A stretch of 64,000 nt of DNA from Steroidobacter gossypii (GTDB taxonomy: Bacteria; Pseudomonadota; Gammaproteobacteria; Steroidobacterales; Steroidobacteraceae): assembly GCF_016801985.1 (NCBI RefSeq), contig NZ_JAEVLS010000001.1, positions 1,488,001 to 1,552,000 on the forward strand, written 5' to 3'. The notes beneath the pieces are model-generated. The model was not told the DNA's origin. It ran no database searches and saw only the letters and a program-made list of their open reading frames with translations. The position numbers and the translations under genes are program-made. Shown in pieces: positions 1-19,248 of the stretch. How positions within the stretch are numbered: the stretch's first letter is position 1; every line of letters begins with the position of its first letter.

Positions 1-91
1 TTCTTTTCGCCGGGCCGGCGTAAGCGCGATGACGGTGCATGAACTGTGCGCCTGTGCACCATCTTCGCCGCGTTCCCGGCGTGAATCAGGC

Positions 92-2545: not shown

Positions 2546-2561
2546 TCCGACGGGAAAATGC

Positions 2562-2590: not shown

Positions 2591-2677
2591 GTTCGTTTAT
2601 CTATTGCCAGCCGCGTTACAACCGATGAACGTGGCGCTGTGGCGATCCAGCATCGGGCCGTGCCTGCGTCTTCGTGC

Positions 2678-3931: not shown

Positions 3932-3948
3932 GCTCGACACAAAAAAGA

Positions 3949-3969
3949 GGCCCGGGGTTCGCCCGGGCC
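3949..3969. terminator. Bidirectional intrinsic terminator
   Basis: An 8-bp GC-rich stem GGCCCGGG (3949-3956) / CCCGGGCC (3962-3969) with loop GTTCG lies between the convergent MFS and TauD-family genes. A run of six A at 3941-3946 becomes a U-run for leftward transcripts, so it is a strong terminator for the aldehyde dehydrogenase-aldolase-dioxygenase operon. It may also stop the MFS transcript. Confidence 0.8.
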
Positions 3970-3998
3970 AGCCTCAAGCAAACATTTGATTTCGGGCG

Positions 3999-4850: not shown

Positions 4851-4895
4851 AGGCATCTCGGACTTCAAAAGAACTGAATTGATCTACGACTCGAG

Positions 4896-5960: not shown

Positions 5961-6907
5961 GCAGCGATCTCCGCAGGGAGATTGAGCGCCACGCGCTCGG
6001 CGGTGCGCAGCGCGGCGGAGGTCATGATATCGAGATTCCCTGCGTAGGCCGGCAGATAGTGAGCCGCGCCCTCGACTTCGAGGAACACGCTGACTTTGAG
6101 ACCGACGAAGGCGGCGTCCACGTCTTTGAACGGCAGCTTGACGCCGGGGCCGACGCGTTCGAACTGCACGCGTTGTTTCAAGCGATAGCCGGGAACGTAG
6201 CTCTGGACTTCGGCGACCATCTTCTGCACCTCGGCTTCGATGGCGCTCTCATCGGCGAGTGGCGTCAGGCAATACACGGTGTCGCGCATGACCAGCGGAG
6301 GCTCGGCGGGGTTCAACACGATAATGGCCTTACCGTGCCGCGCCCCGCCTACCTGTTCGATGGCTCGTGCCGTGGTCTCAGTGAACTCGTCAATGTTTGC
6401 TCGGGTACCCGGGCCGGCGGAACGGCTGGCGATCGACGCGACGATCTCCGCGTACAACACCGGCGTGACTTTACCGACCGCTGCGACGACGGGAATCGTC
6501 GCCTGCCCGCCGCAGGTCACCATGTTCAGATTGGGCGCGCCCAGATGTTGCTCGCCGTTGACCGGCGGAATCACGAAAGGACCGATGGCGGCGGGCGTCA
6601 GATCGATGAGTGTCTTGCCATGCGCACGGAGCACGCTGTCGTGATGTTTGTGCGCGCCGGCGGAAGTGGCGTCGAACACGATGCGCACGTCCTGAAATTC
6701 CGGCATGGCCAGGAAACCGTCGATGCCTGCCGAGGTGGTCGCAACACCCAATCGCTGGGCGCGCGCCAGGCCTTCCGATTGCGGATCCACGCCGACCATC
6801 GCCGCCATGTGTAGCGTGCGACTGGTGCGCAGGACCTTGATCATCAGGTCCGTGCCGATATTGCCGGAGCCGATGATCGCTACTGGGACGCGCTCTGTAC
6901 TCGCCAT
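5957..6907 (-). CDS. mhpF: Acetaldehyde dehydrogenase (acylating)
   Basis: The 316-residue DmpF/BphJ/MhpF family protein has an N-terminal Rossmann motif [10 protein letters not shown] (about 11-20) and the catalytic-cysteine segment [12 protein letters not shown]. It converts acetaldehyde, NAD+ and CoA to acetyl-CoA and forms a channelling complex with the aldolase encoded downstream. It is the first gene of the leftward operon, whose promoter region contains operator copy 2. The next rightward gene starts about 90 bp away, divergently. Confidence 0.95.
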
Positions 6908-6937
6908 GCCGGGTGTCCGGGTGAAGGAAGGCCATTA

Positions 6938-6956
6938 AGGTAGTATGATCATACAA
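6938..6956. promoter_or_regulatory. Operator copy 2, divergent promoter region
   Basis: The right half ATCATACAA (6948-6956) is a perfect consensus half. The overlapping GTATGATCATAC (6943-6954) is a perfect 12-bp palindrome. TATGAT -10-like hexamers occur on both strands here, so one site could control both the acetaldehyde dehydrogenase operon (left) and the aspartate dehydrogenase-like gene (right). Confidence 0.65.
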
Positions 6957-6996
6957 TATTATCAAATACGACTTGGTGGTCGGGCGGAGGCGGCGG

Positions 6997-7794
6997 ATGC
7001 GACCTAATGTTCAGCTCGGGATGATCGGCTTCGGCGCCATCGGGCGCGAGATCATGACGACGCTTTCCAGGCTCGGCGAGACCGGGACCATGAAAGCAGT
7101 GCTGGTCCGGCCCGGGCGCGAAGCGCCTGGCGCCGTTCACGAGCTGCCGGCCCTGATCGCCGCTCGTCCGCAGGTCGTCTTGGAATGCGCGGGGCATTCG
7201 GCGGTGAAGCAATTTGCCGGGCCCCTGCTGCGTGCGGGCATCGATGTGATCATCTCGTCTGTCGGGGTGCTGGCCGACGACGAGGTCAGGCGAGAGCTGC
7301 TGGATGCGGAACAAGGTGGCGGGCGGGCCTTGCTGCCGGCCGGGGCGATCGCTGGCCTGGACGGGTTGTTGGCCGCGCGGCTGGCCGGCCTGGAGGAGGT
7401 GACCTACACCTCTTTCAAGCCGCCGCATGCCTGGCGAGGCACGGCGGCCGAGCAGGTGCTGGATCTAAACCATTCCGAGGCCGAGCGCGAATTCTTTGCC
7501 GGTTCGGCGCGGGAGGCGGCGCTGGCCTATCCCAAGAACGTCAACGTGGGCGTGGCCATCGCTCTGGTCGGCTTGGGAATGGACGCGACGCACGTGCGTT
7601 TGGTGTCGTCACGGAACGTCACCGATCCGCTCGGCCGTATCGAAGCGAGCGGCGCGTTCGGGAATTTCCGTTTCGATATTTTCGCGCGCGCGGCCGCGGA
7701 TAATCCGAAAACTTCGGCGCTGACAGCGTACAGTATCCTGCAATGTGCCCGCCTCGGCGGCGCCTTGCCCATTGCCGGGCTATGCAGCCAGTGA
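6997..7794 (+). CDS. L-aspartate dehydrogenase-like NAD(P)-dependent oxidoreductase
   Basis: The 265-residue protein starts at the ATG at 6997, chosen because GGAGG sits at 6986-6990, six bases upstream; an upstream TTG at 6973 has no such support. It has an N-terminal Rossmann fold (MIGFGAIGREI) and the DUF108/aspartate dehydrogenase C-terminal domain, with SFKPPHAWRGT, NVNVGVAIAL and a closing NPKTSALTAYSIL. The known reaction is reversible NAD(P)-linked deamination of aspartate to oxaloacetate or iminoaspartate. In a catabolic regulon it more likely handles an amino acid or imine product of the pathway than NAD synthesis (no nadA or nadC nearby). It precedes the GntR gene by 110 bp and may be co-transcribed with it. 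Confidence 0.85.
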   Translation: MRPNVQLGMIGFGAIGREIMTTLSRLGETGTMKAVLVRPGREAPGAVHELPALIAARPQVVLECAGHSAVKQFAGPLLRAGIDVIISSVGVLADDEVRRELLDAEQGGGRALLPAGAIAGLDGLLAARLAGLEEVTYTSFKPPHAWRGTAAEQVLDLNHSEAEREFFAGSAREAALAYPKNVNVGVAIALVGLGMDATHVRLVSSRNVTDPLGRIEASGAFGNFRFDIFARAAADNPKTSALTAYSILQCARLGGALPIAGLCSQ

Positions 7795-7904
7795 CGCCAG
7801 CATTCCCAGCATTTTTTTGCCGCCGGGTCCGCTCGCGCGCGGTGTTTCTTTTCGCGCCGCGCAGCTGGCGTAAAATCAGCGGCCAGCAAGCTTGAGGAAA
7901 GGCC

Positions 7905-8642
7905 TTGGAATACCAGGATCTAAGAATCGTTGAAAATCCGACGCTGGTGCGCGAGCACGCGCTGGACAAACTTCGCAACGCCATCAGTCGCGGCTTGTAT
8001 CCGCCCGGCATGAGGCTGGTCGAGCGCGAGCTGTGCGAGGCGCTGGGTGTCAGCCGTACGTCGGTGCGCGAGGCGTTGCGTCAGCTGCAGGCCGAGAATC
8101 TCATCGAGGTCGGCAAGCGGCGCAATATCACAGTCGCGGTGGTCTCGGCGAAGGACGCCGAAGACATCTATCTCATGCGCGAGATGCTCGAGACGCTGGC
8201 GATCAAGCGTTTCGTGGCGCTGGCGGATGACAATGCCATCAAGAAGCTGGTGCGCATTCACAAGGACCTGCGCAAGGTGCTCAACAAGGGCGACGTGCGC
8301 GAGCTGGCCATCATGGCCGGCGAGTTCTACGAGACCATTCTCAATGGCTCCGGCAGCAAGGTGATTGCCGACATGGCGCGGCAGCTGCTGACGCGCGTGA
8401 ACTATCTGCGCATGCGGGCGATGGCGGAGCCGCATCGGCTCGAGGATGGCATGCATGAGTGGGATCGGTTGATCGAGGCCATCGTCGAGCGCAATCCCAC
8501 GGCTGCGGCGAAGGCCATGGGTGAGCATCTTGCCAATGCTCGGCGGGCGATTGTCGCCAAGCTTCAGCAGGAGGAAGAGGCTGCCGCTTCTGCTGCTGCC
8601 GTTCCCGAACGCGCTGCCGCGGCGACTCGCCGCTCCGGCTAA
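7905..8642 (+). CDS. GntR-family transcriptional regulator, FCD subfamily
   Basis: The 245-residue protein starts at a TTG (7905) preceded by GAGGA at 7894-7898. The N-terminal winged helix-turn-helix (about 12-80) shows the GntR pattern LYPPGMRLVERELCEALGVS then RTSVREALRQLQAENLI. The helical FCD effector domain (about 90-225) has the usual metal/ligand positions, including a late HEWDRLIEAI and GEHLANARRA. The tail is an Ala/Glu-rich extension. FCD regulators usually repress catabolic operons and release DNA on binding an acid or pathway intermediate. It is the only transcription factor in the aromatic locus, so it is the best candidate reader of the five palindromes; this link is inference. 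Confidence 0.93.
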   Translation: MEYQDLRIVENPTLVREHALDKLRNAISRGLYPPGMRLVERELCEALGVSRTSVREALRQLQAENLIEVGKRRNITVAVVSAKDAEDIYLMREMLETLAIKRFVALADDNAIKKLVRIHKDLRKVLNKGDVRELAIMAGEFYETILNGSGSKVIADMARQLLTRVNYLRMRAMAEPHRLEDGMHEWDRLIEAIVERNPTAAAKAMGEHLANARRAIVAKLQQEEEAAASAAAVPERAAAATRRSG

Positions 8643-8671
8643 AGAGGGCCTCGGTGGCTTGCAGCGCCAAG

Positions 8672-8806
8672 GCGGGATATTCCTCCCCGGCACCGCTGCA
8701 CCCGCCGCGCCTGCGCTGTCGCGCGGCGCGTTGCTTGTACATCCGTGTAGCGCTAATGGGCCGACATCCCTGTCGGTCCCATTTGCCGGGGAGGAGATAC
8801 CCCGCC
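8672..8806. repeat. Long imperfect inverted repeat with inner hairpin
   Basis: The left arm begins GGCGGGATATTCCTCC (8672-8691). The right arm begins CCGGGGAGGAGATACC (8786-8806) and is its reverse complement except for one inserted base and two mismatches. The enclosed ~95 nt contains CCGACA-tccc-TGTCGG (8761-8776). It may be a degenerate small repeat element or a folded RNA. Confidence 0.5.
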
Positions 8807-8940
8807 CTGCCGCTGCCGACACCGCCGCTGCGTATTCACGCGCGCCCCGGACGGTGCGATACCGTCGCGACGGATTGAGGCTTTCCCAACGCTGGCGATA
8901 CAGCAGCGGCGATGCCGCTGGTCCTGGATCAGGCGACGAA

Positions 8941-8962
8941 GCACGTTTCCGCGGAAACGTGC
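8941..8962. repeat. 22-bp perfect palindrome
   Basis: GCACGTTTCCG (8941-8951) is followed directly by its exact reverse complement CGGAAACGTGC (8952-8962). With no loop it suits a dimeric protein binding site better than a terminator. It is 140 bp upstream of the flavoprotein hydroxylase start and about 75 bp upstream of operator copy 3. Confidence 0.55.
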
Positions 8963-9035
8963 GGGCGGCGGCCGCAAACTCTGGCCTCCGCCTCTTCGGC
9001 CCGCAAACTCCGAGGACACGGTGCGAGACGTATGA

Positions 9036-9054
9036 TTCTATGTTTGTCATACAA
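9036..9054. promoter_or_regulatory. Operator copy 3, upstream of the hydroxylase operon
   Basis: TTCTATGTTtGTCATACAA: the left half matches 7 of 9 and the right half 8 of 9 consensus positions. A -10-like TATGAT (9031-9036) abuts it. The ATG of the flavoprotein hydroxylase lies 48 bases downstream. Confidence 0.6.
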
Positions 9055-9101
9055 AGTCCGCTTGGCTACACTCGGGGCCAACATCAGCGGAAGCTTGATT
9101 C

Positions 9102-10334
9102 ATGGCCAAAGAGCGGGGCGGAGAGCGGGTCATCATTGTCGGTGCGGGGCCCATCGGCGCCATCCTGGCGTATGCGCTCAGGCAGCGAGATATCCCGGTT
9201 CTGCTGATCGAGGCGCTGCCGGCGCCGGAGATTGATTGCCGCGCGGCCTCGTGTCATCCGCCGACCGTGGCGATGCTCGACGAGTTGGGCTTGCTCGAGG
9301 ACGGTCTCGATCAAGGGCTTGTCTCCCCAGTATTCAACTATCTCGACCGCGTCACCGGCGAACTGATCGGCCGCTTTGACATCGGCGCCATGCGCGACCG
9401 GCCGGCGCATCCGTATGTACTGCAGTGGGAGCAGTACAAAATCGTGGGCACCGTCCTGAAGCGCCTGGAGAACGACCCCGACGCCGAGATCCGCATGTCG
9501 ACCCGCGTCATCGCGATCTCCCAGGACGCAAACAAAGTCGAAGTGACAGTGACACTGCCCGACGGCAGCAGCGACGTCTTCTCCGGCAGATATCTCGTCG
9601 GCTGCGACGGCGGCCGAAGCACCGTTCGCAAGCTCGCGGACATCGAGTTCGAAGGCTTCACCTGGCCGGAGCGCTTCCTGAAGATCGATACGCGCTTCGA
9701 CTTCTTCGGGCTGCGCCCCGAGCTCACCAATCGCAATTACTTCTCCGACCCCGACGAGTGGCTCAACTTGTTCAAAGCGCGCGGCGCGAGCGGAGAAGGC
9801 ATGTGGCGCGCCGTGAGCCCGACGCTGCCGGAACAAACCGACGAAGAGCTGCTAGCCCCAGACGCCGTGGAAGCGCGATTGCAGAAGTTCTGCCCGAAGC
9901 AAGGCCGATATGAAATCGCCACCATCGCGCTCTACAAAGTCCATCAGCGAGTCGCCGCGACATTCAACAGAGGTCGCGTACTGCTCGCCGGCGATTCGGC
10001 GCATGTGAACAATCCGGTCGGCGGCATGGGCATGAACGGCGGCATTCACGACGCCATGAATCTGGCCGACAAGTTGCAACAAATCTGGTTCGGACGCGCC
10101 GATGCGCAGCCGCTGCTCGATCGCTACACGCGCCAGCGTCGCAAGGCGCAGGTCGACTACGTGCAGGCGCAGAGCATTCAGAACAAGCAAACACTCGGCG
10201 AAAAGGATCCCGCCGAGCGCAAGCGCAAGCTGGACAGCATCCGCCGCCAGTCCGCCGAGCCCGAATTGCACGATGCCTTTATTCGCCGCGCCTGTCTGAT
10301 CGACAGTCTGCGCGACGCCAACGCTACTCTTTGA
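9102..10334 (+). CDS. FAD-dependent aromatic hydroxylase (MhpA/PheA-like, class A)
   Basis: The 410-residue protein has the three class A flavoprotein monooxygenase signatures: the dinucleotide motif VIIVGAGPIGAILAYAL near the N-terminus, the DG motif YLVGCDGGRSTVRK (about 168-181), and the GD motif RVLLAGDSAHVNNPVGGMGM (about 290-310). It lacks the C-terminal thioredoxin-like domain of MhpA and phenol hydroxylases (those run to 550-600 residues). It likely hydroxylates an aromatic or heteroaromatic ring with NAD(P)H and O2. It is the first gene of a three-gene operon with a cupin and a GGT-family protein, under operator copy 3. Substrate not predictable from sequence. Confidence 0.9.
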   Translation: MAKERGGERVIIVGAGPIGAILAYALRQRDIPVLLIEALPAPEIDCRAASCHPPTVAMLDELGLLEDGLDQGLVSPVFNYLDRVTGELIGRFDIGAMRDRPAHPYVLQWEQYKIVGTVLKRLENDPDAEIRMSTRVIAISQDANKVEVTVTLPDGSSDVFSGRYLVGCDGGRSTVRKLADIEFEGFTWPERFLKIDTRFDFFGLRPELTNRNYFSDPDEWLNLFKARGASGEGMWRAVSPTLPEQTDEELLAPDAVEARLQKFCPKQGRYEIATIALYKVHQRVAATFNRGRVLLAGDSAHVNNPVGGMGMNGGIHDAMNLADKLQQIWFGRADAQPLLDRYTRQRRKAQVDYVQAQSIQNKQTLGEKDPAERKRKLDSIRRQSAEPELHDAFIRRACLIDSLRDANATL

Positions 10335-10345
10335 AGGACCGCGCC

Positions 10346-10876
10346 ATGGCCATCGCACGCCATCCTCGTCCGCCCGAACTGGTCGGAGTTCCGCTGGAGC
10401 AGATCATGGAGCGCTACGTCGCGCGCTTCGCCGATCGAGTGCCGGACTGGAATGCGTTTTCGGATGCAAACATTGAAGGCTATCGACGCGCGCAACATCG
10501 TTTCGTCGGCGCTGGCGCGTCCGGCAAGCACGACGACAGCAAGGTGGTGCCCGCGGGCAATTTCACTTTGTCCATCATGTTGGTGCCACCAGGGCAGGGC
10601 AATGCGCCGCATACCCACGAAGTCGAGGAAGTATTTTTCGTCCTTCAGGGTCGCTGCGTAGTGTTCATCGAAGACGAGGACGGTCGGCGCGTCAGCAAAG
10701 AGCTGCAGCCGTGGGAAATGATCTCCTGTCCGCCCGGCGTCATCCATGGCTATGTGAATGAAACCGACGAGCCGGTGTATCTGCAGGTGGTGTTGGGTCG
10801 CGGGCGGCCCGAGACCGCGGGCTTCGTCGATCAGGCGCTATTCGAGAATCGCGACGCGCATTTGACGCGCAAGTGA
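10346..10876 (+). CDS. Single-domain cupin protein with intact metal site
   Basis: The 176-residue protein starts at the ATG at 10346, with AAGGA at 10334-10338 overlapping the upstream stop. Both cupin motifs are complete: HTHEVEE gives H89, H91 and E95, and PPGVIHGYVN gives H134, with N138 closing the motif. Four metal ligands are therefore present, so it could be an enzyme (dioxygenase, isomerase or hydrolase) and not only a sensor. It sits between the flavoprotein hydroxylase and the GGT-family gene, with a tgATG overlap to the latter, so the three act together. A role in ring opening or further processing of the hydroxylated product is possible but inferred. Confidence 0.85.
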   Translation: MAIARHPRPPELVGVPLEQIMERYVARFADRVPDWNAFSDANIEGYRRAQHRFVGAGASGKHDDSKVVPAGNFTLSIMLVPPGQGNAPHTHEVEEVFFVLQGRCVVFIEDEDGRRVSKELQPWEMISCPPGVIHGYVNETDEPVYLQVVLGRGRPETAGFVDQALFENRDAHLTRK

Positions 10877-12666
10877 TGTTCACGACACGGCCGGAAATCC
10901 GCGGCACGTTCGGCGTCGTTGCCTCGACGCATTGGATTGCCTCCGGCGTTGGCATGTCGATGCTCGAGCGAGGGGGCAATGCCTTCGATGCGGCGGTGGC
11001 CATTGGCTTCGTGCTGCAAATCGTCGAGCCGCATCTGTGCGGGCCCGCGGGCGAAGTGCCGATCATTTTCAGATCGGCTCGCGATGACAAACCCACCGTG
11101 TTGTGCGGCCAGGGAGTGGCGCCCGCCGCAGCGACCATCGAGCGCATGCGCTCAATGAATCTCCAAATGGTGCCCGGATCGGGGTTGATCGCGGCCGTCG
11201 TGCCAGGATCGTTCGACGCTTGGATGACGTTATTGCGCGATCACGGGAGCATGCGGCTCTCCGATGTACTGGAGCCTGCGATCCATTACGCAGAGGCCGG
11301 GCACCCATTGTTGCCCGGAGTGTCCCGCGCGCTGGCGGATGTTGCCGATGCATTCCGAAAGGAATGGCCGACGTCCGCACCGGTCTGGCTGCCGAACAAC
11401 GAGGTGCCCGCGCCGAATCAGTTGTTTCGCAATCCGATGCTGGCTGCGACGTGGCGACGGATTCTCGACGCAGCCGGCGATGGTACGCGCGAACAACAAA
11501 TCGAGCGCGCTCGAGCGGCTTGGTCGAGCGGTTTCGTCGCTGAGGCGATCGATCGTTTTTGTCGCACGCAGGAGTTGATGGATGCGAGCGGTCAGCGCCA
11601 CAAAGGTTTGCTGACCGGCGATGACATGGCGCGCTGGCAGGCGACATATGAGCCGCCACAGACATTCCGCTATGGCGAATGGACCTTCAGCAAGACCGGC
11701 CCGTGGGGGCAGGGGCCGGTGTTGTTGCAAGCACTCTCGCTCCTTGCCGGCTTCGATCTCGAGAAGATGCCAGCGAGCGAGCCGGAGTTTGTGCACGTGG
11801 TGTTGGAGGCGCTCAAGCTCGCGTTTGCCGATCGCGAGGCGTACTACGGCGATCCAGATTTCACGCGTGTGCCACTCGATATCTTGTTGAGCCAAAGCTA
11901 CGCGGCGGAGCGTCGCAAGCTGATCGGCGACCGAGCCTCGCTCGAGTTGCGGCCGGGTGTGGTGCCTGGGTTCGAAGCTCAGATCGAGAAGTGCTTGAGC
12001 ACGGTGCGTATCGCTACGAACGAGAGCGCCGGGCTCGGCATTGGTGAGCCTACGATGATGCATCTGAAGCCCACGTTGAAGCCGGGCGACACCGTGCACT
12101 TCGATGTCATCGATCGCTTTGGCAACATGGTTTCGGCCACGCCATCCGGCGGCTGGCCACAATCTTCGCCGACCATTCCCGAGTTGGGGTTTGCGCTGAA
12201 TACGCGCGCGCAGATGTTTTGGTTGGAGCCCGGCTTGCCGGGCAGCCTCGCGCCGGGGAAGCGCCCTCGCACGACGCTGACACCCACATTGGCGGTGCGC
12301 GACGACGGGATGTCACTCATTTGTGGCACGCCCGGCGGCGATCAGCAGGATCAGTGGCAGCTCATCCTGCTGCTTCGGTACATTCATCACGGGCTGGGGT
12401 TGCAGCAGGCGATCGATGCGCCTTTGTTTCATAGCGTGCACTTCCCGGCGTCGTTCTATCCCCGCGAAGCTTTGCTCGGGACAGCTGTGTTTGAAGAGAG
12501 CTGCGGGGAGAAGGTAATCGCCGAGCTACGTCGCCGCGGTCACAAAGTGAAGATCGCGCCAGAATGGTCTGCCGGCAGGCTCACTGCCGCCGCCCGAGGC
12601 CCCGATGGAATTCTGCACGCCGCCGCCACACCACGTCTGATGCAAGCCTACGCCTTAGGCCGCTAG
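10876..12666 (+). CDS. Gamma-glutamyltransferase/acylase-family Ntn hydrolase
   Basis: The 596-residue protein starts at an ATG sharing a base with the cupin stop codon (a GTG at 10873 is the alternative). The fold pattern of the GGT family is clear: MLERGGNAFDAAVAIGFVLQ near residues 30-48, then VPGSFDAWMTLL and a late PLFHSVHFP region. The autoprocessing/nucleophile Thr is T406 in GDTVHFDVIDRFGNMVS. Classical GGTs have TTH here; this protein has TVH, so the second Thr is lost. No signal peptide is visible, unlike secreted GGTs, which implies a cytoplasmic enzyme. It may cleave an amide or gamma-glutamyl conjugate made in the pathway, or act as a cephalosporin-acylase-like amidase. The 3' end merges into tandem repeats. 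Confidence 0.85.
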   Translation: MFTTRPEIRGTFGVVASTHWIASGVGMSMLERGGNAFDAAVAIGFVLQIVEPHLCGPAGEVPIIFRSARDDKPTVLCGQGVAPAAATIERMRSMNLQMVPGSGLIAAVVPGSFDAWMTLLRDHGSMRLSDVLEPAIHYAEAGHPLLPGVSRALADVADAFRKEWPTSAPVWLPNNEVPAPNQLFRNPMLAATWRRILDAAGDGTREQQIERARAAWSSGFVAEAIDRFCRTQELMDASGQRHKGLLTGDDMARWQATYEPPQTFRYGEWTFSKTGPWGQGPVLLQALSLLAGFDLEKMPASEPEFVHVVLEALKLAFADREAYYGDPDFTRVPLDILLSQSYAAERRKLIGDRASLELRPGVVPGFEAQIEKCLSTVRIATNESAGLGIGEPTMMHLKPTLKPGDTVHFDVIDRFGNMVSATPSGGWPQSSPTIPELGFALNTRAQMFWLEPGLPGSLAPGKRPRTTLTPTLAVRDDGMSLICGTPGGDQQDQWQLILLLRYIHHGLGLQQAIDAPLFHSVHFPASFYPREALLGTAVFEESCGEKVIAELRRRGHKVKIAPEWSAGRLTAAARGPDGILHAAATPRLMQAYALGR

Positions 12667-12820
12667 ACAACTTGGCCGCGGCCCAACGCCGCCACACCAG
12701 TTGAGCAAGCCTACGCCTTAAGCCACGAGCCGACCCGGTTACGGTCGCACGCCGCCACACCACCTCGTTGCAAGCCTCGCCTTCTGCCGCGGGCGGCCCG
12801 GCTACGGCTCCACGCCGCAG
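12621..12820. repeat. Tandem repeat array, ~63-66 bp period, three units plus a partial fourth
   Basis: Units begin with CGCCGCCACAC at 12621, 12687 and 12750, and a partial CGCCGCAG at 12813 (steps of 66, 63 and 63 bp). Each contains a GCAAGCCT(A)CGCCTT core. The first unit forms the last 15 codons of the GGT-family gene and the others are non-coding. It fills most of the 218-bp gap between the convergent GGT-family and ferredoxin genes, so it could serve as a terminator region or be a product of local duplication. Confidence 0.7.
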
Positions 12821-12884
12821 TCTCTTTGCCGGCGCAACAACTTTGAAGAATCATTCGCGGCGGCGTTATGAGTCGCGCTGCCTC

Positions 12885-13205
12885 TCACTTCAGCAGCAAA
12901 TAAACTTTGCCGTCAGCAACTTCGATCGGCCAGGTGCGCAGCGCCTGCTTGCACGGCAGGCTCTTCGCCTTACCCGAGCAAACATCGAAGCTGCCACCGT
13001 GCAGCGGACAGAACACGATGTTCCCTTGCAGCCGCCCTTCGGACAGCGATGCGATCGCATGGGTGCACTCGTCATCGACCGCATACAGCTTGCCGTCGAC
13101 ATTGCACACCAGAATGGGGTCGAGTCCCTCGGGCTGGATTTTCAGCATGCCGCCGGGCGCAACGTCACCCGCCTCACACAAAAGGCGTCGATCGACAAGA
13201 GTCAT
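12885..13205 (-). CDS. Rieske [2Fe-2S] ferredoxin of an aromatic dioxygenase system
   Basis: It is a soluble 106-residue Rieske ferredoxin from the internal ATG giving MTLVDRRLL (an upstream ATG at 13226 adds seven residues). The cluster ligands, numbered on the longer form, are C54 and H56 (ECTHA) and C73 and H76 (CPLHGGSF). Its size and HGGSFDVCSGKA pattern match BphF/CarAc-type electron carriers, which pass electrons from reductase to the terminal Rieske oxygenase encoded at 15.2 kb. It has its own operator-bearing promoter between itself and the reductase gene, so it is not simply co-transcribed with the reductase. Confidence 0.93.
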   Translation of the reverse strand: MTLVDRRLLCEAGDVAPGGMLKIQPEGLDPILVCNVDGKLYAVDDECTHAIASLSEGRLQGNIVFCPLHGGSFDVCSGKAKSLPCKQALRTWPIEVADGKVYLLLK

Positions 13206-13251
13206 GGCGGCTCGTTCGCAGCTCACTGCAGCACCCTACAACCGGGAATGG

Positions 13252-13285
13252 TTGTAGTATTGTCATACAAAGTCTGCGCAGTCAA
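13252..13285 (-). promoter_or_regulatory. Operator copy 4 and predicted promoter of the ferredoxin gene
   Basis: TTGTAGTATtGTCATACAA (13252-13270) is a 19-bp palindromic operator; its right half matches 8 of 9 positions. On the minus strand a -35 TTGACT (13280-13285) and a -10 AATACT (13256-13261) are 18 bp apart. The operator therefore covers the -10 box and part of the spacer. Confidence 0.65.
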
Positions 13286-13306
13286 CCCGACCTGGCCGGG
13301 AACCGC

Positions 13307-14305
13307 TTAGCCTCCGGGCTGGAACCGCTCAGCGCGAATCGCTCCGGCCGGAACTCCGTGCGCGCTCAGTGTTTTGCGCGCGGCGTCGACCATCGGGGGA
13401 GGGCCGCAAAGGTAGCAGACAGTGTCGGATTCAAAGTCGGTGGGATCTAGAAGCGAAACGGCAGTGCCGCTGCGTAGAGCGCCTTCTGCACCCTCCATAA
13501 CGGCGATGCGCACTTCCAACTCAGGCATGGACGCGGCCAGGGCCGCCAGCTCTTCCACGTAGAACAAATCCTGCCGCCTAGTGCAGCCGAAACACAAAAG
13601 CGCCGACGCCCCGCGACCGCGCAGCGAACGAATCATCGACAACACAGGCGCGAGCCCAGTGCCGCCGGCAACGAATACGTGACGGTGCGCGCGATCATCG
13701 AGCCCGAAGGAACCGAGCGGCGCCTGTAGTCGAACACGATCGCCGACTTTCGCAGTGTCCTGCACCCAACGTGACATTTTCCCGTCCGGCACCAGCCGGA
13801 TCATCAACTCGATCAGCGGCAGTTCTGCAGCTGTACTCGCAATGGAGTAAGCGCGCGCCTCGCCCACGCCGGGCGCCGCCAAGCGCACGTACTGGCCGCT
13901 CTGAAAAGTGAGCCCCTCAGCACGATCCAGCTTCAACGTAAGTAACGCCACTGACGGCGCGGCCAGCCGCAAGTTGAAGATCACTCCCGAATGCTTGGCG
14001 GGCAGGGAAGGCGCCGCGTTCAGGGGATACGGCATCTCGAACGTCGCATCTGAGCTCAACCTGGTAAGGCACGCGGGCCGCAAACCCTCCGCCAGCTCGT
14101 CCGCATTCACCGGGACTTTGCCCGTCGAATCGACGACCGTCGTTCCGTCCACGCACTGGACCACGCAGCTGCCACAGCTCCCGGTGCAGCAGTCATAACG
14201 CAGCGGCGCATCCACGGCGAGCGCGCCCTCCAACACGGTTTGCCCGGCTTCGACGGGGACCGACAACTCCGCGCCGTCCTGAAAAATCAATCGCGCCCGA
14301 TGCAT
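13307..14305 (-). CDS. Ferredoxin-NAD(P) reductase component (2Fe-2S/FAD)
   Basis: The 332-residue protein starts at the ATG giving MHRARLIFQD. It has an N-terminal plant-type 2Fe-2S domain with cysteines in DCCTGSCGSC and RPACL. The FAD domain has the RxYS motif (ARAYSIAS) and the NAD domain has FVAGGTGLAPVLSMI. This order (2Fe-2S, FAD, NAD) is that of BenC/CarAd-type reductases, which feed electrons from NADH to a Rieske ferredoxin or oxygenase. It is transcribed leftward from the region with operator copy 5, divergent from the hydratase-oxygenase operon it serves. An upstream in-frame start would run through the operator and is unlikely. Confidence 0.92.
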   Translation of the reverse strand: MHRARLIFQDGAELSVPVEAGQTVLEGALAVDAPLRYDCCTGSCGSCVVQCVDGTTVVDSTGKVPVNADELAEGLRPACLTRLSSDATFEMPYPLNAAPSLPAKHSGVIFNLRLAAPSVALLTLKLDRAEGLTFQSGQYVRLAAPGVGEARAYSIASTAAELPLIELMIRLVPDGKMSRWVQDTAKVGDRVRLQAPLGSFGLDDRAHRHVFVAGGTGLAPVLSMIRSLRGRGASALLCFGCTRRQDLFYVEELAALAASMPELEVRIAVMEGAEGALRSGTAVSLLDPTDFESDTVCYLCGPPPMVDAARKTLSAHGVPAGAIRAERFQPGG

Positions 14306-14341
14306 TAAGTAACCGCCGCGCTTCCGGCCGACATGGCCGTG

Positions 14342-14360
14342 TTGCATGATTATCATACAA
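14342..14360. promoter_or_regulatory. Operator copy 5, near-perfect palindrome in divergent promoter
   Basis: TTGCATGATtATCATACAA has only one mismatched pair in 19 bp and is the best copy in the window. Rightward, TTGCAT (14342-14347) and TATAAC (14364-14369) form a -35/-10-like pair with 16-bp spacing. Leftward, TATGAT hexamers overlap the same site. It can control both the reductase gene and the oxygenase operon. Confidence 0.7.
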
Positions 14361-14394
14361 TCATATAACGTTGCTGCAGCAAGAGGGCGAACCA

Positions 14395-15171
14395 ATGGAT
14401 TCGAGAGTCGGCGAAACCGCGCAGGCTTTGCTGGATGCGTACAGCGGCGCGCTGCTGCCTCCGATCCGCAGTCGATTCGATGCGGGCGACACGCGCGCAG
14501 CCTATGCCGTTCAGCAGGCGCAGGTGTCGCACTGGATCGAGCAAGGCCGCCGGCCCGTAGGTCGCAAGATCGGCCTCACCTCGCCGGCGGTTCAGAAGCA
14601 GCTCGGCGTGTCCGAGCCGGACTTCGGTCAACTGTTCGCCGACATGGTGTACGGCACGGGCGAGACGATTCCCGTAACCCGCCTGCAGCAGCCGCGCGTG
14701 GAAGCTGAGATCGTTCTGATCTTGTCGCGTGACCTGGATATGGCGCACGCCACCGTGGCGGATGTCATCGCGTCCGTGGGTTGCGTGTTGCCCGCGCTCG
14801 AAGTCGTCGGCAGTCGCATCGCCGATTGGAAGATCGACATCGTCGACACCATCGCCGACAACGCGTCATCGGGCGTGCTCGTGCTCGGCGGGCCGGCGCG
14901 ACGCCTGGAAGGTCTGGACCTGGTGAACTGCGCGATGACGATGACATTGAACGGCAAGACCGTGTCGAGCGGTTTCGGCCGTGATTGTTTGGGTGGTCCG
15001 CTCAACGCAGCCGTGTGGCTCGCACGCCGCTCGCGTGAATTGGGCCGGCCGTTGAAACAAGGCGAGCTGGTGATGACGGGCGCGCTCGGGCCGATGGTGT
15101 CGATCCAGGCGGGCGACGTCGTGCACGCGACCATCGAGGGCATCGGCCAGGTTGGCGTGCAGTTTGCTTGA
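14395..15171 (+). CDS. 2-hydroxypenta-2,4-dienoate hydratase
   Basis: The 258-residue MhpD/XylJ/BphH-family protein starts at the ATG at 14395 (GAGGG lies eight bases upstream; an earlier TTG at 14371 abuts the operator and is less likely). Family features include GRKIGLTSPAVQKQLGV, the metal-site region PRVEAEIVLIL, and the C-terminal GALGPMVSIQAGDVVHA. It adds water to 2-hydroxypenta-2,4-dienoate, giving 4-hydroxy-2-oxovalerate for the aldolase. It is the first gene of the rightward operon that also carries the oxygenase, C-C hydrolase and extradiol dioxygenase; the car equivalent would be carD. Confidence 0.94.
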   Translation: MDSRVGETAQALLDAYSGALLPPIRSRFDAGDTRAAYAVQQAQVSHWIEQGRRPVGRKIGLTSPAVQKQLGVSEPDFGQLFADMVYGTGETIPVTRLQQPRVEAEIVLILSRDLDMAHATVADVIASVGCVLPALEVVGSRIADWKIDIVDTIADNASSGVLVLGGPARRLEGLDLVNCAMTMTLNGKTVSSGFGRDCLGGPLNAAVWLARRSRELGRPLKQGELVMTGALGPMVSIQAGDVVHATIEGIGQVGVQFA

Positions 15172-15211
15172 TTGGAATCGCAGCAGTTTTCGTTCGAGGA
15201 TGCAGTAGATC

Positions 15212-16384
15212 ATGAGTGATGACGCGCAAACCCCGGAAGGCGTCCGCCCCGAAGTTGCCGCAGCGGTGGGCGACTGGCGCGCCTACGTGGAAGCCAAGAT
15301 AGGCTTCCGCAATCACTGGTATCCGGTGCGCTTTTCCAACGAGCTGGTGGAAGGCCAGCTCATCACCGTGCAGGTGCTTGGCGAGAAGCTGCTGTTGAAG
15401 CGCATCGATGGCAAGGTGTATGCGATCCGCGATCGTTGTCTGCATCGTGGCGTGCCGCTGTCGCGCAAGCCCGATTGCTACACCAAGGACACGATCACCT
15501 GCTGGTATCACGGCTACACCTATCGTTTCCAAACGGGCGAGCTGGTGAACATTCTCGCCGTGCCCGACAGCCGTCTCATCGGCCGTCGCAAGATTCAGAG
15601 CTTCCCGGTACAGGAAGCCAAAGGCCTGATCTTCGTCTTCATCGGCGATCTCGACCCGGTGCCGCCGCTCAATCAGGACGTGCCGCCCGGGTTCCTCGAT
15701 GACGACGTCATGATTCTCGGCAAGCATCGCGTCGTGAACTCGAACTGGCGGCTGGGTGCGGAGAACGGCTTCGACGCGCTCCACATCTTTATTCACAAAG
15801 ACACCACGCTGCGTCACTTCCGCACGTTCAACTTCCCCATCGGCCACACGCCGCTGCCCGGCGCGGTGAAAACCGTTGAAGACGCCGACGGTCCGAAAGG
15901 TGTCATCGACGACTTCGCTCAACACAAGCCGATCTGGGATGGCGAGATCGATGGTCGCGTGGTGGTGCGAGGTCCGCGTTCCCAGCAGGTGCAGGGCACC
16001 TCCGCGTCGGTTGGCACGTCGATCTGGTTGCCGGGAGTGTTGAAAGTCGAATCGTTCCCGATGCCGGGGCTGACTCAGTTCGAGTGGTATGTGCCGCTCG
16101 ACGCCAAGACTCATCTGTACGTGCAAACCATCGGTCAGCAGGTGCAGACCGACGAGGAGCGCACCGAGTTCGCCAACAACTTCGAATCCATCTACAAGCC
16201 GCACGGTCTGGACGGCTTCAATGCCGACGACATCTGGGCACGCGAAGTCACCGAGCCGTTCTATGCCGACGACTATGGCTGGGTGGATGAAATGTTGTGC
16301 GAGCCCGATACCACGATTCTCGCCTGGCGCAAGCTGGCGAGCCGCGCCAATCGCGGCATTCAGACTCCCCAGGATCTGCGCTGA
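15212..16384 (+). CDS. Rieske non-heme iron oxygenase, carbazole 1,9a-dioxygenase (CarAa)-like
   Basis: In this 390-residue terminal oxygenase the Rieske ligands are C76/H78 (RCLHRG) and C97/H100 (TCWYHGYTY). The catalytic-iron histidines are H191 and H195, in ENGFDALHIFIHKD, with the bridging Asp of that motif. Many blocks agree with my memory of CarAa from carbazole degraders: ITCWYH..TYR, VQEAKG, FLDDD..ILGK, SNWRL..ENGFD, IWLPGVLKVE.FP, QFEWYVP.D..TH, FNADDIWARE, AWRKLAS...GIQT. It is a single-subunit (alpha-only) oxygenase with no beta-subunit gene nearby, as expected for this class. It likely does angular or lateral dihydroxylation of a fused heteroaromatic; the exact substrate is inferred, not shown. 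Confidence 0.92.
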   Translation: MSDDAQTPEGVRPEVAAAVGDWRAYVEAKIGFRNHWYPVRFSNELVEGQLITVQVLGEKLLLKRIDGKVYAIRDRCLHRGVPLSRKPDCYTKDTITCWYHGYTYRFQTGELVNILAVPDSRLIGRRKIQSFPVQEAKGLIFVFIGDLDPVPPLNQDVPPGFLDDDVMILGKHRVVNSNWRLGAENGFDALHIFIHKDTTLRHFRTFNFPIGHTPLPGAVKTVEDADGPKGVIDDFAQHKPIWDGEIDGRVVVRGPRSQQVQGTSASVGTSIWLPGVLKVESFPMPGLTQFEWYVPLDAKTHLYVQTIGQQVQTDEERTEFANNFESIYKPHGLDGFNADDIWAREVTEPFYADDYGWVDEMLCEPDTTILAWRKLASRANRGIQTPQDLR

Positions 16385-16403
16385 TCGAGCCCCCCATCGG
16401 ACC

Positions 16404-17240
16404 ATGAGCAGAATGACCGAATTCACTTCGCGCTTCGTCGATACCAACGGCATCCGAACTCACTACCTGGAAGCCGGCAGCGGCCCGACGTTGCTGCTCA
16501 TGCACGGTGGTGGCGCTGGCGCCGACGCTTATGGCAACTGGCGTGAATGCATCCCGATCTTGGCCAGAAAATTTCGGGTCATCGCGCCGGACATGGTCGG
16601 TTTCGGACGCAGCGACAAACCCTCTCCGGACAGCTACACCTACGATCAGCCGGGGCGCAATCGTCAGCTGGTGTCTTTGCTCCAGGCGCTCGACATCGAC
16701 AAAGCATTTCTGGTCGGCAATTCCATGGGCGGGGCGACTTGCATCGGTGCGACCCTGCAATGTCCCGAGCGCGTGGCGCGGTTGGTATTGATGGGCAGCG
16801 CCGGTCTGCCCATCCCGGAAAAACCATCACCGCAGTTGCTCCACAACTTGAACTACGATTTCACGGTGGACGGCATGCGTCGTGTGATCGCAGGTCTCAC
16901 GTCGCCGAGTTACACGCCGCCGGAAGAGCTGGTGCAGTATCGTTACAACCTGACTCATGAGCCGGGCGCCAAGGCGGCGCTCGCCGCCGTGAACGCGGAA
17001 ACGCGCAAAGGCACGTTGAATTATCCGGAAGACGAGCTGCGCAAAATCAAACAACCCGTGCTGGTCGTCAACGGCAAGCAGGACGGCGTGTCGACGCTGG
17101 CGCGCGCCTATCGATTCCTGGAGCTGTTCGAGAACAGCTGGGGTTACATCGTGCCTCACTGCGGTCACTGGGCCATGATCGAACGCACTGCGGATTTCTG
17201 TGGCGCCGTCGAACGCTTCCTGACCCAGCCGGTGAACTGA
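16404..17240 (+). CDS. Meta-cleavage-product (C-C bond) hydrolase, alpha/beta fold
   Basis: This 278-residue alpha/beta hydrolase starts at ATG 16404, 20 bases after the oxygenase stop. The catalytic triad is visible: the nucleophile Ser in VGNSMGGAT, Asp in NGKQDGVS and His in PHCGHWAMIE. The N-terminal HGGGAGADAYGNW oxyanion segment and RNRQLV lid region resemble BphD/CarC/MhpC. It hydrolyses the 2-hydroxy-6-oxo-hexadienoate ring-cleavage product to a carboxylic acid plus 2-hydroxypenta-2,4-dienoate. It lies between the oxygenase and extradiol dioxygenase genes, completing an upper pathway in one operon. Confidence 0.93.
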   Translation: MSRMTEFTSRFVDTNGIRTHYLEAGSGPTLLLMHGGGAGADAYGNWRECIPILARKFRVIAPDMVGFGRSDKPSPDSYTYDQPGRNRQLVSLLQALDIDKAFLVGNSMGGATCIGATLQCPERVARLVLMGSAGLPIPEKPSPQLLHNLNYDFTVDGMRRVIAGLTSPSYTPPEELVQYRYNLTHEPGAKAALAAVNAETRKGTLNYPEDELRKIKQPVLVVNGKQDGVSTLARAYRFLELFENSWGYIVPHCGHWAMIERTADFCGAVERFLTQPVN

Positions 17241-17241
17241 C

Positions 17242-17508
17242 GTGGCAACCGCGCCGCAGGGTGTGCATGAGCTCATCGAGCATTTGATCGAGACGCCCGG
17301 CGATCGCGGCTTGATTCGGACCTCGCCGGACGTGTTGTTCGAGCGCTTCGGCATCTCTGCCGACGTGCGCGAAGTGCTGCGAACCGGCGGGCGCGATGAC
17401 CTGGCACGCCTCGGGATTCATCCCAACCTGGTGATCAAATGGCTGATCTGGTCGGGCCGGCCGACCATGCCGTTCTTCCCCATCGACTATTACTTCGCGA
17501 GGCGCTGA
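17242..17508 (+). CDS. Extradiol dioxygenase small (LigA-like) subunit
   Basis: The 88-residue, largely helical protein starts at GTG 17242, one base after the hydrolase stop codon. Features such as RGLIRTSPDVLFERFGI, LARLGIHPNLVIKW and a closing FFPIDYYFARR fit the LigA/CarBa small subunit of class III extradiol dioxygenases. It packs against the catalytic LigB-type subunit encoded two bases downstream and shapes its active site. The length (about 90) matches CarBa, not the longer LigA of protocatechuate 4,5-dioxygenase. Confidence 0.87.
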   Translation: MATAPQGVHELIEHLIETPGDRGLIRTSPDVLFERFGISADVREVLRTGGRDDLARLGIHPNLVIKWLIWSGRPTMPFFPIDYYFARR

Positions 17509-17510
17509 CC

Positions 17511-18323
17511 ATGGGCAAGATCGTGGGCGCCTTCGCCATGTCGCACGTGCTGGGCTCGCCATTTGGATTGGAAGAGCAGGCCGAGCGCGTGTTCGTCGGC
17601 ATGAAGGAATTGGGTCAGCAGCTGTGCCAGACGCATCCGACCTTGCTGGTGATCATCACCAGCGATCATTTGAACAACTTCCGTCTCGATCAGCCCATGC
17701 CGTTCGCCATCGGTACGGCCGACAGTTATACGCCCTATGGCGACATGGGTTTGCCGACCGAGCCCATTCGCGGTGACGCGGCGTTCTCGACTGGCTTCGC
17801 GATGTTTGCTGTCAATCACGGCTTCGAGTTGGCCAAGCCGCCGCGCTTGCGGCCGGATCATGGCGTGATGATTCCACTCGGCATGGTGGATCCGAAACGC
17901 GAGTTGCCGGTGGTGCCGCTGTATGTGAATACGGTTTACACGCCCGCGCCGACGCCGCAAGAGAGCTGGCGTCTCGGCGAGTTGTTGCGCGCGTATGTCG
18001 CCGAGCACTGCAAGTCCGAAGAACGAGTCGCCTTGCTGGCCGGCGGTGGATTGTCACATTGGCTGGGTGTGCCGGAGGAAGGTCAGGTCAACGAAGCCTG
18101 GGATCGCTGGTTCATGGACATGCTGGCCTCGGGTCAGGGGGCTGGATTGTCCAAGCTCACCAATGAGCAGATCCTCGCGGATGCTGGCAATGGCGGCTTG
18201 GAAGTAAACTCCTGGATCGCCCTGGCGGGCGCCATTGCGGGCGCGCCCGGCGAATGTTTGTTTTACGAGGCGATTCCAGCGTGGGCGAGTGGCATGGCGG
18301 GCATGGCGTTTCGGGTGCAGTGA
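17511..18323 (+). CDS. Extradiol dioxygenase catalytic (LigB-like) subunit
   Basis: The 270-residue class III (LigB) extradiol ring-cleavage dioxygenase starts at ATG 17511, directly after the small-subunit gene. Probable Fe(II) ligands are H12 (AMSHVLGSP), H53 (SDHLNNF) and E231 (GGLEVNSW). The probable catalytic base is H117 (RPDHGVMIPL), and LLAGGGLSHWLG is also typical. It meta-cleaves a catecholic product of the Rieske oxygenase. A LigAB-type rather than BphC-type enzyme paired with a CarAa-like oxygenase is characteristic of carbazole (car) loci, where the substrate is 2'-aminobiphenyl-2,3-diol. Last clear enzyme gene of the operon. Confidence 0.93.
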   Translation: MGKIVGAFAMSHVLGSPFGLEEQAERVFVGMKELGQQLCQTHPTLLVIITSDHLNNFRLDQPMPFAIGTADSYTPYGDMGLPTEPIRGDAAFSTGFAMFAVNHGFELAKPPRLRPDHGVMIPLGMVDPKRELPVVPLYVNTVYTPAPTPQESWRLGELLRAYVAEHCKSEERVALLAGGGLSHWLGVPEEGQVNEAWDRWFMDMLASGQGAGLSKLTNEQILADAGNGGLEVNSWIALAGAIAGAPGECLFYEAIPAWASGMAGMAFRVQ

Positions 18324-18450
18324 AGGCGCACAACGCCGCCACAATGTTTTCAAAAAATTTCTTCTCAAGAACAACATCCGTTCGCGCACGACCGGCACTT
18401 TTTAGGATGCAAGACACACCCTCCACCTGCCTTTCGTTCAAAAAGCGAGG

Positions 18451-18469
18451 TCGCGCCGTCATGGCGCGA
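18451..18469 (+). promoter_or_regulatory. Hairpin just before the TSUP gene
   Basis: TCGCGCC (18451-18457) / GGCGCGA (18463-18469) with a 5-nt loop lies 11 bases before the ATG at 18481, next to a weak Shine-Dalgarno-like AGGTAAG. It may weaken read-through or translation of the transporter from the upstream operon. Confidence 0.35.
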
Positions 18470-18480
18470 GCAGGTAAGCA

Positions 18481-19248
18481 ATGACGTCCTTCGACTTGTT
18501 GATCGCCGCGCTGGCGGCGGTCGGCGCTGGCGCCATCAATGCGCTGGCGGGCGGCGGCACGTTGATCAGCTTTCCGGTGCTGGTGGCGCTCGGGGTGCCG
18601 CCGGTGGCGGCCAATATCACCAATGCGGTGGCGCTGTGCCCAGGCTACTTCGGCGCGACCATCGCGCAATTGCCCAATCTCAAGGGACAACGGCGCCAGC
18701 TGCTGTTGCTGGTGCCGGTCGCCGTGCTGGGCGGTCTCGCCGGCGGCATGATCCTCGTGCACACCGGCGAGCGGACCTTCACCGCGCTGGTGCCGTGGAT
18801 GATTCTGGCGGCAGCGCTGCTGCTCGCCATCCAAGAGCCGGTGAAGAAGTTCGTCGTCAAACGCCTGTCGAATCCCGAACACAAGCATCACACCATGGCG
18901 CTGTCGGCCCTGCCCATCGCCGCTGCGGCAATCTATGGCGGCTTTTTCAGCGCGGGCATGAGTGTGCTGCTGCTCGCAGTGCTCGGTCTGACGCTCGATG
19001 ATTCGCTCACCCGCCTGAACGCGCTCAAGCAAGTGCTGGCGTTCAGCGTCAACATCGCGGCGGCGGTGTTCTTCCTGTTCTCGGATCAGGTGGTCTGGAT
19101 CGCCGCGGCAGTCATGGCCGTCGGTGCGCTGATCGGCGGCGCCCTGGGTGGCAAGCTGGCGGGCAAACTGCCGCCGGCGGTGCTGCGCTGGGTGGTCGTT
19201 GTCGCAGGCGTCGCGATTGCCATCGCTTACTGGGTGAAATCCGCGTAA
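18481..19248 (+). CDS. TSUP (TauE/SafE)-family membrane permease
   Basis: The 255-residue protein has about eight hydrophobic helices and the duplicated family pattern: GAGAINALAGGGTLISFPVL near the N-terminus and AAAIYGGFFSAGMSVLLLAV in the second half. TSUP proteins move sulfite, sulfonates, sulfoacetate or other small organic anions across the inner membrane. It follows the extradiol dioxygenase gene in the same direction after 157 bp, so it may or may not belong to the catabolic operon. No operator copy is found in front of it. Confidence 0.88.
   Translation: MTSFDLLIAALAAVGAGAINALAGGGTLISFPVLVALGVPPVAANITNAVALCPGYFGATIAQLPNLKGQRRQLLLLVPVAVLGGLAGGMILVHTGERTFTALVPWMILAAALLLAIQEPVKKFVVKRLSNPEHKHHTMALSALPIAAAAIYGGFFSAGMSVLLLAVLGLTLDDSLTRLNALKQVLAFSVNIAAAVFFLFSDQVVWIAAAVMAVGALIGGALGGKLAGKLPPAVLRWVVVVAGVAIAIAYWVKSA

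Follow-up and report, generated by a model that had tools for sequence, protein, structure and literature searches.

A carbazole-dioxygenase-like gene cluster of Steroidobacter gossypii with a probable substrate other than carbazole

Does a locus that encodes relatives of the carbazole (car) enzymes act on carbazole? The question is raised by a 64,000-nucleotide stretch of the Steroidobacter gossypii genome (NCBI RefSeq assembly GCF_016801985.1, contig NZ_JAEVLS010000001.1, forward-strand positions 1,488,001 to 1,552,000; hereafter the window), in which a first-pass annotation had placed, at 13307-18323, a car-like catabolic system outside the usual genera that might act on an undescribed heteroaromatic. 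The genes are indeed there, but the system is far larger, since the catabolic gene set occupies 275-18323, about 18 kb, and the co-conserved genes that are most telling about the substrate had been missed. We put at slightly better than even the chance that this cluster attacks a polar N-heteroaromatic, probably a carboxylated one and other than carbazole, by angular dioxygenation and meta-cleavage.

The car-like core lies at 12885-18323 and consists of a Rieske oxygenase, ferredoxin and reductase, an extradiol dioxygenase, a hydrolase and a hydratase. The terminal oxygenase (15212-16384, plus strand, 390 aa) belongs to the CarAa family, as annotated (Pfam PF11723, E 2.5e-77; PF00355, E 7.5e-19). 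It thus carries the domain typical of homotrimeric oxygenases of the carbazole type, and is the only PF11723 match in the genome (7.1 Mb, 32 contigs, 97.6% complete). It is 50-54% identical to three CarAa proteins, those of Pseudomonas resinovorans CA10 (plasmid pCAR1, 52.6%), Novosphingobium KA1 (pCAR3, 54.4%) and Acinetobacter IC001 (pIC001B, 50.3%), and its best Protein Data Bank (PDB) matches are CarAa structures (E 2e-133). It is an alpha-only enzyme, no beta-subunit gene being present among the identified cluster genes. The LigAB-type extradiol dioxygenase is exactly of the CarBaBb size that had been reported, with subunits of 88 aa (17242-17508, plus strand) and 270 aa (17511-18323, plus strand). 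The small subunit is 34% identical to KA1 CarBa (E 5e-12) and 29% to CA10 CarBa (E 4e-8); it matched neither IC001 CarBa at E 1e-3 nor any Pfam or NCBIfam model at E 0.001. The LigB-type large subunit (PF02900, E 1.7e-38) is 36-43% identical to the three CarBb proteins, and alignment shows that it keeps the His/His/Glu positions that we take to be the ligands and the His that is presumably catalytic.

The hydrolase (16413-17240, plus strand) is 44-47% identical to CarC, and its best PDB match is 1j1i (E 2e-71), a hydrolase of meta-cleavage compounds; Ser, Asp and His positions, presumably catalytic, are conserved in the alignment. The hydratase (14395-15171, plus strand), also correctly called, is of the 2-hydroxypenta-2,4-dienoate, MhpD/CarD type (43% to CarD; NF008461, 349.8 bits, just below the cut-off of 350). 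The ferredoxin and reductase are encoded divergently, as described, although the ferredoxin gene falls just outside the interval originally given. The Rieske ferredoxin (12885-13226, minus strand, PF00355) is 44% identical to CA10 CarAc and 40% to Acinetobacter CarAc, with no match to KA1 CarAc. The plant-type ferredoxin/flavin adenine dinucleotide (FAD)/NAD reductase (13307-14308, minus strand, start uncertain; compared over 13307-14323; Pfam Fer2, FAD_binding_6 and NAD_binding_1) is 27% identical to CA10 CarAd and 24% to the Acinetobacter reductase. A 4-hydroxy-2-oxovalerate aldolase of the CarE/DmpG type (4896-5960, minus strand; 75% to pCAR1 CarE over 287 aa) and an acylating acetaldehyde dehydrogenase of the CarF/DmpF type (5957-6907, minus strand; 66% to pCAR1 CarF over 286 aa) complete, with the hydratase, a lower meta branch that converts 2-hydroxypenta-2,4-dienoate to pyruvate and acetyl-CoA by established meta-pathway chemistry.

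Thus the window shares with the CA10, KA1 and IC001 car systems an alpha-only PF11723 oxygenase, a two-subunit LigAB-type extradiol dioxygenase and a CarC-type hydrolase, and with CA10 also the Rieske ferredoxin, the plant-type reductase and the hydratase-aldolase-acetaldehyde dehydrogenase branch. It differs from them in its gene order, oxygenase-hydrolase-small-large (Aa-C-Ba-Bb), where pCAR1 has Aa-Ba-Bb-C, a difference that had been noticed from the start; in the divergent ferredoxin and reductase; in the phylogenetic position and lid residues of the oxygenase; in five additional genes; and in a genome where no anthranilate dioxygenase exceeds the model cut-offs.

The first-pass annotation had asked for a protein phylogeny of the oxygenase, and the tree sets the protein apart from the CarAa of CA10 and KA1 and from the OxoO representative. 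One scan of genome contigs with a four-sequence alignment yielded 65 loci (denoted by L and a number), and the tree comprises 75 oxygenase rows, taken from Rieske matches that reached 85% coverage and 150 bits, after L001-L006, L016 and L086 had been dropped as duplicates. The window oxygenase falls in its own clade of 15 rows (support 100/96), and CA10, KA1 and IC001 fall in a separate clade of 11 rows (support 99/93). Uniting the window clade with the CA10/KA1 clade was rejected by the approximately unbiased (AU) test, with p 0.00042 for groups picked after seeing the tree. Together with 19 neighbour rows (Pandoraea, Paraburkholderia, Caballeronia, Variovorax, Sphingomonas mali and others) and two long-branch rows, the window clade forms a group of 36. 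The gene order of the window also occurs outside its clade, for example at L031 and L034. On one Sphingomonas mali contig, NZ_BCYX01000002.1, two different CarAa-family oxygenases (L034 and L045) lie about 35 kb apart, and the CarAa-like gene at L046 is on a contig assigned to a metagenome-assembled genome of Klebsiella pneumoniae, for which misbinning is our guess.

The second reference enzyme is 2-oxo-1,2-dihydroquinoline 8-monooxygenase (OxoO), a full-length Rieske relative of the window oxygenase (E 1e-96) that scores 327 bits against it, compared with 448 for CarAa, and carries Ile, as read from the alignment, at the position of CA10 Phe204. By analogy with OxoO, the window enzyme could be a monooxygenase or a lateral dioxygenase, with ring cleavage following another hydroxylation. 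Such a mode of action appears highly improbable to us: OxoO, represented in the tree by Cupriavidus L015 (802.9 bits to OxoO), has a long branch and is placed at a great distance from the window clade; the 10-kb L015 locus has no extradiol match, unlike the window; all 14 other loci of the window clade carry CarBaBb- and CarC-like genes, as in angular pathways; and the cluster genes include no identified cis-diol dehydrogenase, although in this last respect the search covered the cluster genes only.

Residues of the active site and its lid were counted in 64 of the 75 rows, the rows not counted being L007, L083, L015, L042_5295, L044_13255, L057, L067 (two), L069 and L070 (two). His183, His187 and Asp333 (CA10 numbering), the ligands of the active-site iron, are invariant in 64/64 rows, and so is Glu284. 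At the Phe204 position, which corresponds to His212 of the window oxygenase, His is present in 15/15 rows of the window clade and 19/19 of the neighbour clade, and Phe in 11/11 of the carbazole clade; the 19 other rows have Phe (13), Leu (5) or Ser (1), and none has His. The position of Ile262, presumably a pocket residue and equivalent to Thr269 of the window oxygenase, is Thr in 15/15 window-clade rows and Ala (17) or His (2) in the neighbour clade, and is kept as Ile in 11/11 carbazole-clade rows and 18/19 others. Arg201, His202 and Arg204 (window numbering) are fixed in 15/15 window-clade rows and specific to that clade. According to PMC3423008, two segments shift toward the pocket entrance upon carbazole binding, one of them being Leu202-Thr214, and Glu284, Tyr296 and Arg337 are proton-relay residues of carbazole oxygenase. 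The counterparts of the last two in the window oxygenase, Y303 and R344, are invariant with CA10, KA1 and IC001. We infer that the changes in lid and pocket have adapted the enzyme to a polar substrate, probably an anion.

In the carbazole route, the CarC hydrolase would leave anthranilate as the second product. No anthranilate dioxygenase scored above cut-off in the genome (best TIGR03228 score, 73.2 bits compared with 671.9), and the sole PF00848 protein is nearest to the glycine-betaine monooxygenase model, far below the cut-offs of that model and of AndAc. A true pathway for carbazole (or dibenzofuran), present in unusual hosts, in which carbazole yields anthranilate and 2-hydroxypentadienoate and the anthranilate leaves by an unrecognised route, would agree with the homology to CarAa, CarBa, CarBb, CarC, CarAc, CarAd, CarD, CarE and CarF and with the conserved iron-site residues and Glu284. 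It agrees poorly with the separate clade and the rejection of union by the AU test, with the polar and basic substitutions in lid and pocket, with the genome lacking an anthranilate dioxygenase above cut-off, and with accessory genes, described below, that are unmatched in all 11 carbazole-clade loci. We consider a carbazole pathway distinctly improbable. The suggestion of a different heteroaromatic is thus upheld as probable by clade, pocket residues, gene complement and the lack of an above-cut-off anthranilate dioxygenase.

In the pathway that we favour, the polar substrate would enter via a TonB-dependent receptor and transporters, and the three-component CarAa-type oxygenase would attack the N-bearing carbon of the benzo ring and the carbon adjacent to it. 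The resulting unstable hemiaminal would open unaided to a 2,3-dihydroxyphenyl compound; a cis-diol dehydrogenase would be dispensable because a hemiaminal formed by angular attack opens spontaneously to the catechol, as with carbazole. The CarBaBb-like enzyme would then meta-cleave the dihydroxylated ring, and the CarC-like hydrolase would release 2-hydroxypenta-2,4-dienoate, which the hydratase, aldolase and acetaldehyde dehydrogenase would take to pyruvate and acetyl-CoA. From the known chemistry of the car and bph pathways, the pentadienoate branch implies that the attacked ring bears few if any other substituents. The second half would be a nitrogen-containing acid, probably not anthranilate, to be processed, before or after opening of the benzo ring, by five further proteins: an aspartate dehydrogenase (AspDH), a TauD-type dioxygenase, an FAD-dependent monooxygenase, a cupin and a gamma-glutamyltransferase-like (GGT-like) protein. 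The angular chemistry, the anionic substrate, the order of reactions and the nature of the second product are deductions from gene content and residues.

These five genes lie between 3999 and 12666. The AspDH family protein (6973-7794, plus strand; PF01958 and PF03447) scores 241.7 bits with NF009828 (cut-off 177). The TauD-type 2-oxoglutarate-dependent dioxygenase (3999-4868, minus strand) scores 274.8 bits with NF007104, below the cut-off of 313, and matches TauD in the PDB at E 1e-63. The FAD-dependent aromatic monooxygenase (9102-10334, plus strand; PF01494), whose nearest solved structures are PnpA (E 3e-56) and HspB (E 2e-46), is followed by the cupin (10331-10876, plus strand; PF07883) and by the GGT-family Ntn hydrolase (10873-12666, plus strand; TIGR00066 245.5 bits, below the cut-off of 357.85; PDB 6j3a, E 4e-192), each gene overlapping the next by 4 bp. 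The His/His/Glu/His metal site of the cupin appears intact by eye in an alignment with its relatives; a predicted model of this protein, for which there were 8 close sequences, had a mean pLDDT (predicted local distance difference test) of 38.5 and was disregarded.

The gene set is not peculiar to S. gossypii. The window clade includes 14 further loci (L017-L030) with oxygenases 76-95% identical to that of the window, four from the Steroidobacter group and one each from Brevundimonas, Niveispirillum, Phenylobacterium, Croceicoccus, Sphingomonas, an uncultured Caulobacteraceae bacterium, Novosphingobium, Caulobacter, Pacificimonas and Pusillimonas, that is, at least nine other genera. Within the genus, 5/14 genomes, including that of the window, carry the oxygenase at 94% identity or more (4/13 others, at 94-95%). 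"Outside the usual genera" therefore holds for the gammaproteobacterial, Steroidobacter-group host and fails to describe the clade, which spans alpha-, beta- and gammaproteobacteria; gammaproteobacterial car loci, moreover, are known (pCAR1 and, by homology, pIC001B).

Locus counts leave out the window, L081, L007, L015 and L016, and those restricted to loci of at least 16 kb drop 1/14 loci of the window clade, 0/19 of the neighbour clade, 2/11 of the carbazole clade and 13/23 others. On this basis, the hydrolase and both extradiol subunits are present in 13/13 window-clade loci, the reductase in 12/13, the hydratase, AspDH, FAD-dependent monooxygenase and GGT-like protein in 10/13 each, the ferredoxin and cupin in 9/13 each, acetaldehyde dehydrogenase in 8/13, aldolase in 6/13 and TauD in 5/13. 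Calls of open reading frames in the related loci are partly rough. The shortfall is explained in part by the ends of the loci, because orthologues turn up in whole-genome searches: TauD in 9/9 clade genomes searched (74-94% identity), AspDH in 7/7 (56-88%) and the monooxygenase in 7/8 (68-80%). The cupin is rare in a sample of the class, being found at E 1e-20 in 1/369 genomes, the window's own. Some alphaproteobacterial copies also have nearby genes for a tannase-family protein, an SBF-like transporter, a luciferase-like monooxygenase and an asparaginase; as they accompany some copies only, we do not count them as part of the system.

Conservation of this kind also bears on whether two unrelated pathways, the car-like core and a block of AspDH, FAD-dependent monooxygenase, cupin and GGT-like genes (with or without TauD), adjoin by chance or through shared regulation. 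The blocks do vary in order and orientation between genera, some members lie outside the locus in two genomes (see below), and relatives of the monooxygenase, cupin and AspDH in a plasmid collection belong to other catabolic clusters. We nevertheless regard two separate pathways as rather unlikely in view of the whole-genome recovery of TauD, AspDH and the monooxygenase across three proteobacterial classes at 56-94% identity, and of the proximity of AspDH to the oxygenase in the neighbour clade too.

AspDH is present in 10/13 window-clade and 13/19 neighbour-clade loci of at least 16 kb, and in 0/9 carbazole-clade and 0/10 other loci (neighbour clade compared with carbazole and other loci, Fisher p 1e-5, the related loci not being independent). 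The best models for the window AspDH were PRK13303.1-3, and the one Pandoraea protein scanned gave PRK13302. These different subfamily models, with one protein per clade scanned, suggest that AspDH was recruited separately in the two clades. Like the window, the neighbour-clade clusters have CarBb-like (15/19) and CarC-like (17/19) genes. They contain no match to the TauD, monooxygenase, cupin or GGT-like proteins, and carry instead a second Rieske oxygenase in 14/19 loci (window clade 0/13, carbazole clade 1/9, others 4/10) and a second LigB enzyme in 12/19, with none in the other groups; the second oxygenase of the Pandoraea locus L053 is LigXa-like. In both clades, then, a second oxidative module seems to handle the remainder left by the CarC-like hydrolase. 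More speculatively, the pathway may exist in parallel form in the two clades and mineralise a widespread natural carboxylated N-heteroaromatic by Rieske-type angular opening of the N-ring, the independently recruited AspDH collecting the amino skeleton; this wider proposal we consider less likely than not. L053 (3783-20155) encodes CarAa-like and LigXa-like Rieske oxygenases, two LigB proteins, AspDH and a GhrA-like dehydrogenase (below the model cut-off), and at L036, also of the neighbour clade, an amino acid permease gene is close to the oxygenase.

Relatives of the cupin (34-36% identity) and of AspDH are also found side by side in other plasmid clusters, where the Rieske oxygenase and the extradiol enzyme are different ones, so that cupin and AspDH may constitute a separate module. 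Four clusters (L087:9382-21232, L088:5287-18002, L089:9454-21275 and L090:3799-16196), from plasmid records of Caballeronia (two), Klebsiella and Novosphingobium, represent a different conserved catabolic gene set, with a Rieske oxygenase, a short-chain dehydrogenase/reductase, a vicinal oxygen chelate enzyme, cupin, alpha/beta hydrolase, thiamine diphosphate enzyme, aspartate dehydrogenase, aldehyde dehydrogenase and IclR regulator; in three aligned cupins of this group, the last metal-binding His is replaced by Arg. The nearest relatives of the FAD-dependent monooxygenase in the plasmid collection (46-48%; L091:8651-17634 and L092:8478-14998, from Mariluticola and Agrobacterium vitis) adjoin genes for an "amino acid synthesis family protein", an amidohydrolase and a DUF4286 protein, possibly a separate pathway.

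The description that fits the substrate best is a benzo-fused N-heteroaromatic with a carboxylate or similar anion, for which beta-carboline, kynurenate and indole-carboxylate types are candidates on chemical grounds alone. By our own reasoning, kynurenate was set aside as the single best choice: the C5 amino-oxo acid expected from it fits AspDH loosely and does not fit the monooxygenase, cupin or GGT-like protein. Indole-2-carboxylate would give aminofumarate/iminosuccinate directly, which is good for AspDH and leaves the same three proteins over. Both are kept as candidates. Beta-carbolines would, again by our reasoning, fit a degradation in two parts; a literature phrase search on beta-carboline degradation gave no match. 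In the accessible parts of the literature searched, including PMC10992316, PMC2848856, PMC11354673, PMC3423008 and PMC12746152, we found no description of this gene set, which is weak evidence of absence, subscription literature being mostly uncovered. For lumichrome (riboflavin) catabolism in Nocardioides simplex, PMC12746152 describes the opening of an N-heteroaromatic ring to a catechol by a Rieske dioxygenase, followed by extradiol cleavage and a cupin enzyme, steps that resemble those proposed here; that Rieske enzyme, however, is built of alpha and beta subunits, and neither the gene set nor the products are the same.

Several observations weigh against the pathway proposed here. It does not explain what the TauD-type, GGT-like and cupin proteins do, and the negative result for a cis-diol dehydrogenase covers the cluster genes only. 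The Pusillimonas genome has no monooxygenase match at E 1e-60, and its locus, L030, no match to the window reductase, hydratase, cupin or GGT-like protein, with another type of reductase present; the pathway is therefore not wholly fixed. At L023 and L025, AspDH, the monooxygenase and TauD sit outside the 21-kb locus. The link between window and neighbour clades is supported at 94/86, which falls short of the tree program's starred level, and two long-branch rows separate them; the residue counts are not independent, because the changes fall on few branches. The carbazole alternative gains from 3gcf, the carbazole oxygenase of Nocardioides IC177: this protein, which is outside the tree, scores 365.6 bits against the window oxygenase, compared with 448 for the best CarAa, so that carbazole activity is retained at a divergence greater than that found here, and distance alone leaves carbazole possible. 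In the light of PMC10992316, the window sequence is compatible with carbazole turnover.

The remaining genes of the set serve probable uptake and regulation. The TonB-dependent receptor (275-2545, plus strand; the NCBIfam TonB models shown all below their cut-offs), a probable outer-membrane uptake protein for the substrate, is matched at 39-61% in 4/13 clade loci of at least 16 kb and at 86-87% in two other genomes of the genus. The major facilitator superfamily transporter (2558-3931, plus strand; NCBIfam models below cut-offs) is likewise matched in 4/13, and a GntR/FCD transcriptional regulator (PF00392 and PF07729) is encoded at 7905-8642 (plus strand). We set the end of the system at 18323 because the genes 3' of it (a TauE-like permease, an M3 peptidase and two more, among 21 window genes compared) had matches in the four Steroidobacter-group loci and in no others of the clade. 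Positions 1-254 (minus strand) are the end of a 627-aa open frame entering from upstream (L082:13371-15254), with no NCBIfam match at E 1e-10. An Rfam scan of the window gave no match at gathering scores, and the genome no match to the VanA_C domain (PF19112). Of the phage records, four match the oxygenase, none across more than 80% of its length. A scan of 12600-18600 gave 2 promoter-like and 8 terminator-like sites, compared with 1.2 and 5.0 in shuffles, and was not used.

The locus is thus a car-like system with, to judge by its genes, a probable new substrate, and it is not unique to S. gossypii. Homology-based surveys would label such loci carbazole genes; if our reading is true, His at the Phe204 position and a linked AspDH would be markers that separate them from true carbazole degraders. 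On the same condition, the genes of the cluster would allow a pathway not found in the literature searched to be tested, the carbazole dioxygenases would be one hydrophobic branch of a larger family acting on polar nitrogen heteroaromatics, and this would hint at the origin of the pollutant-degrading car pathways.

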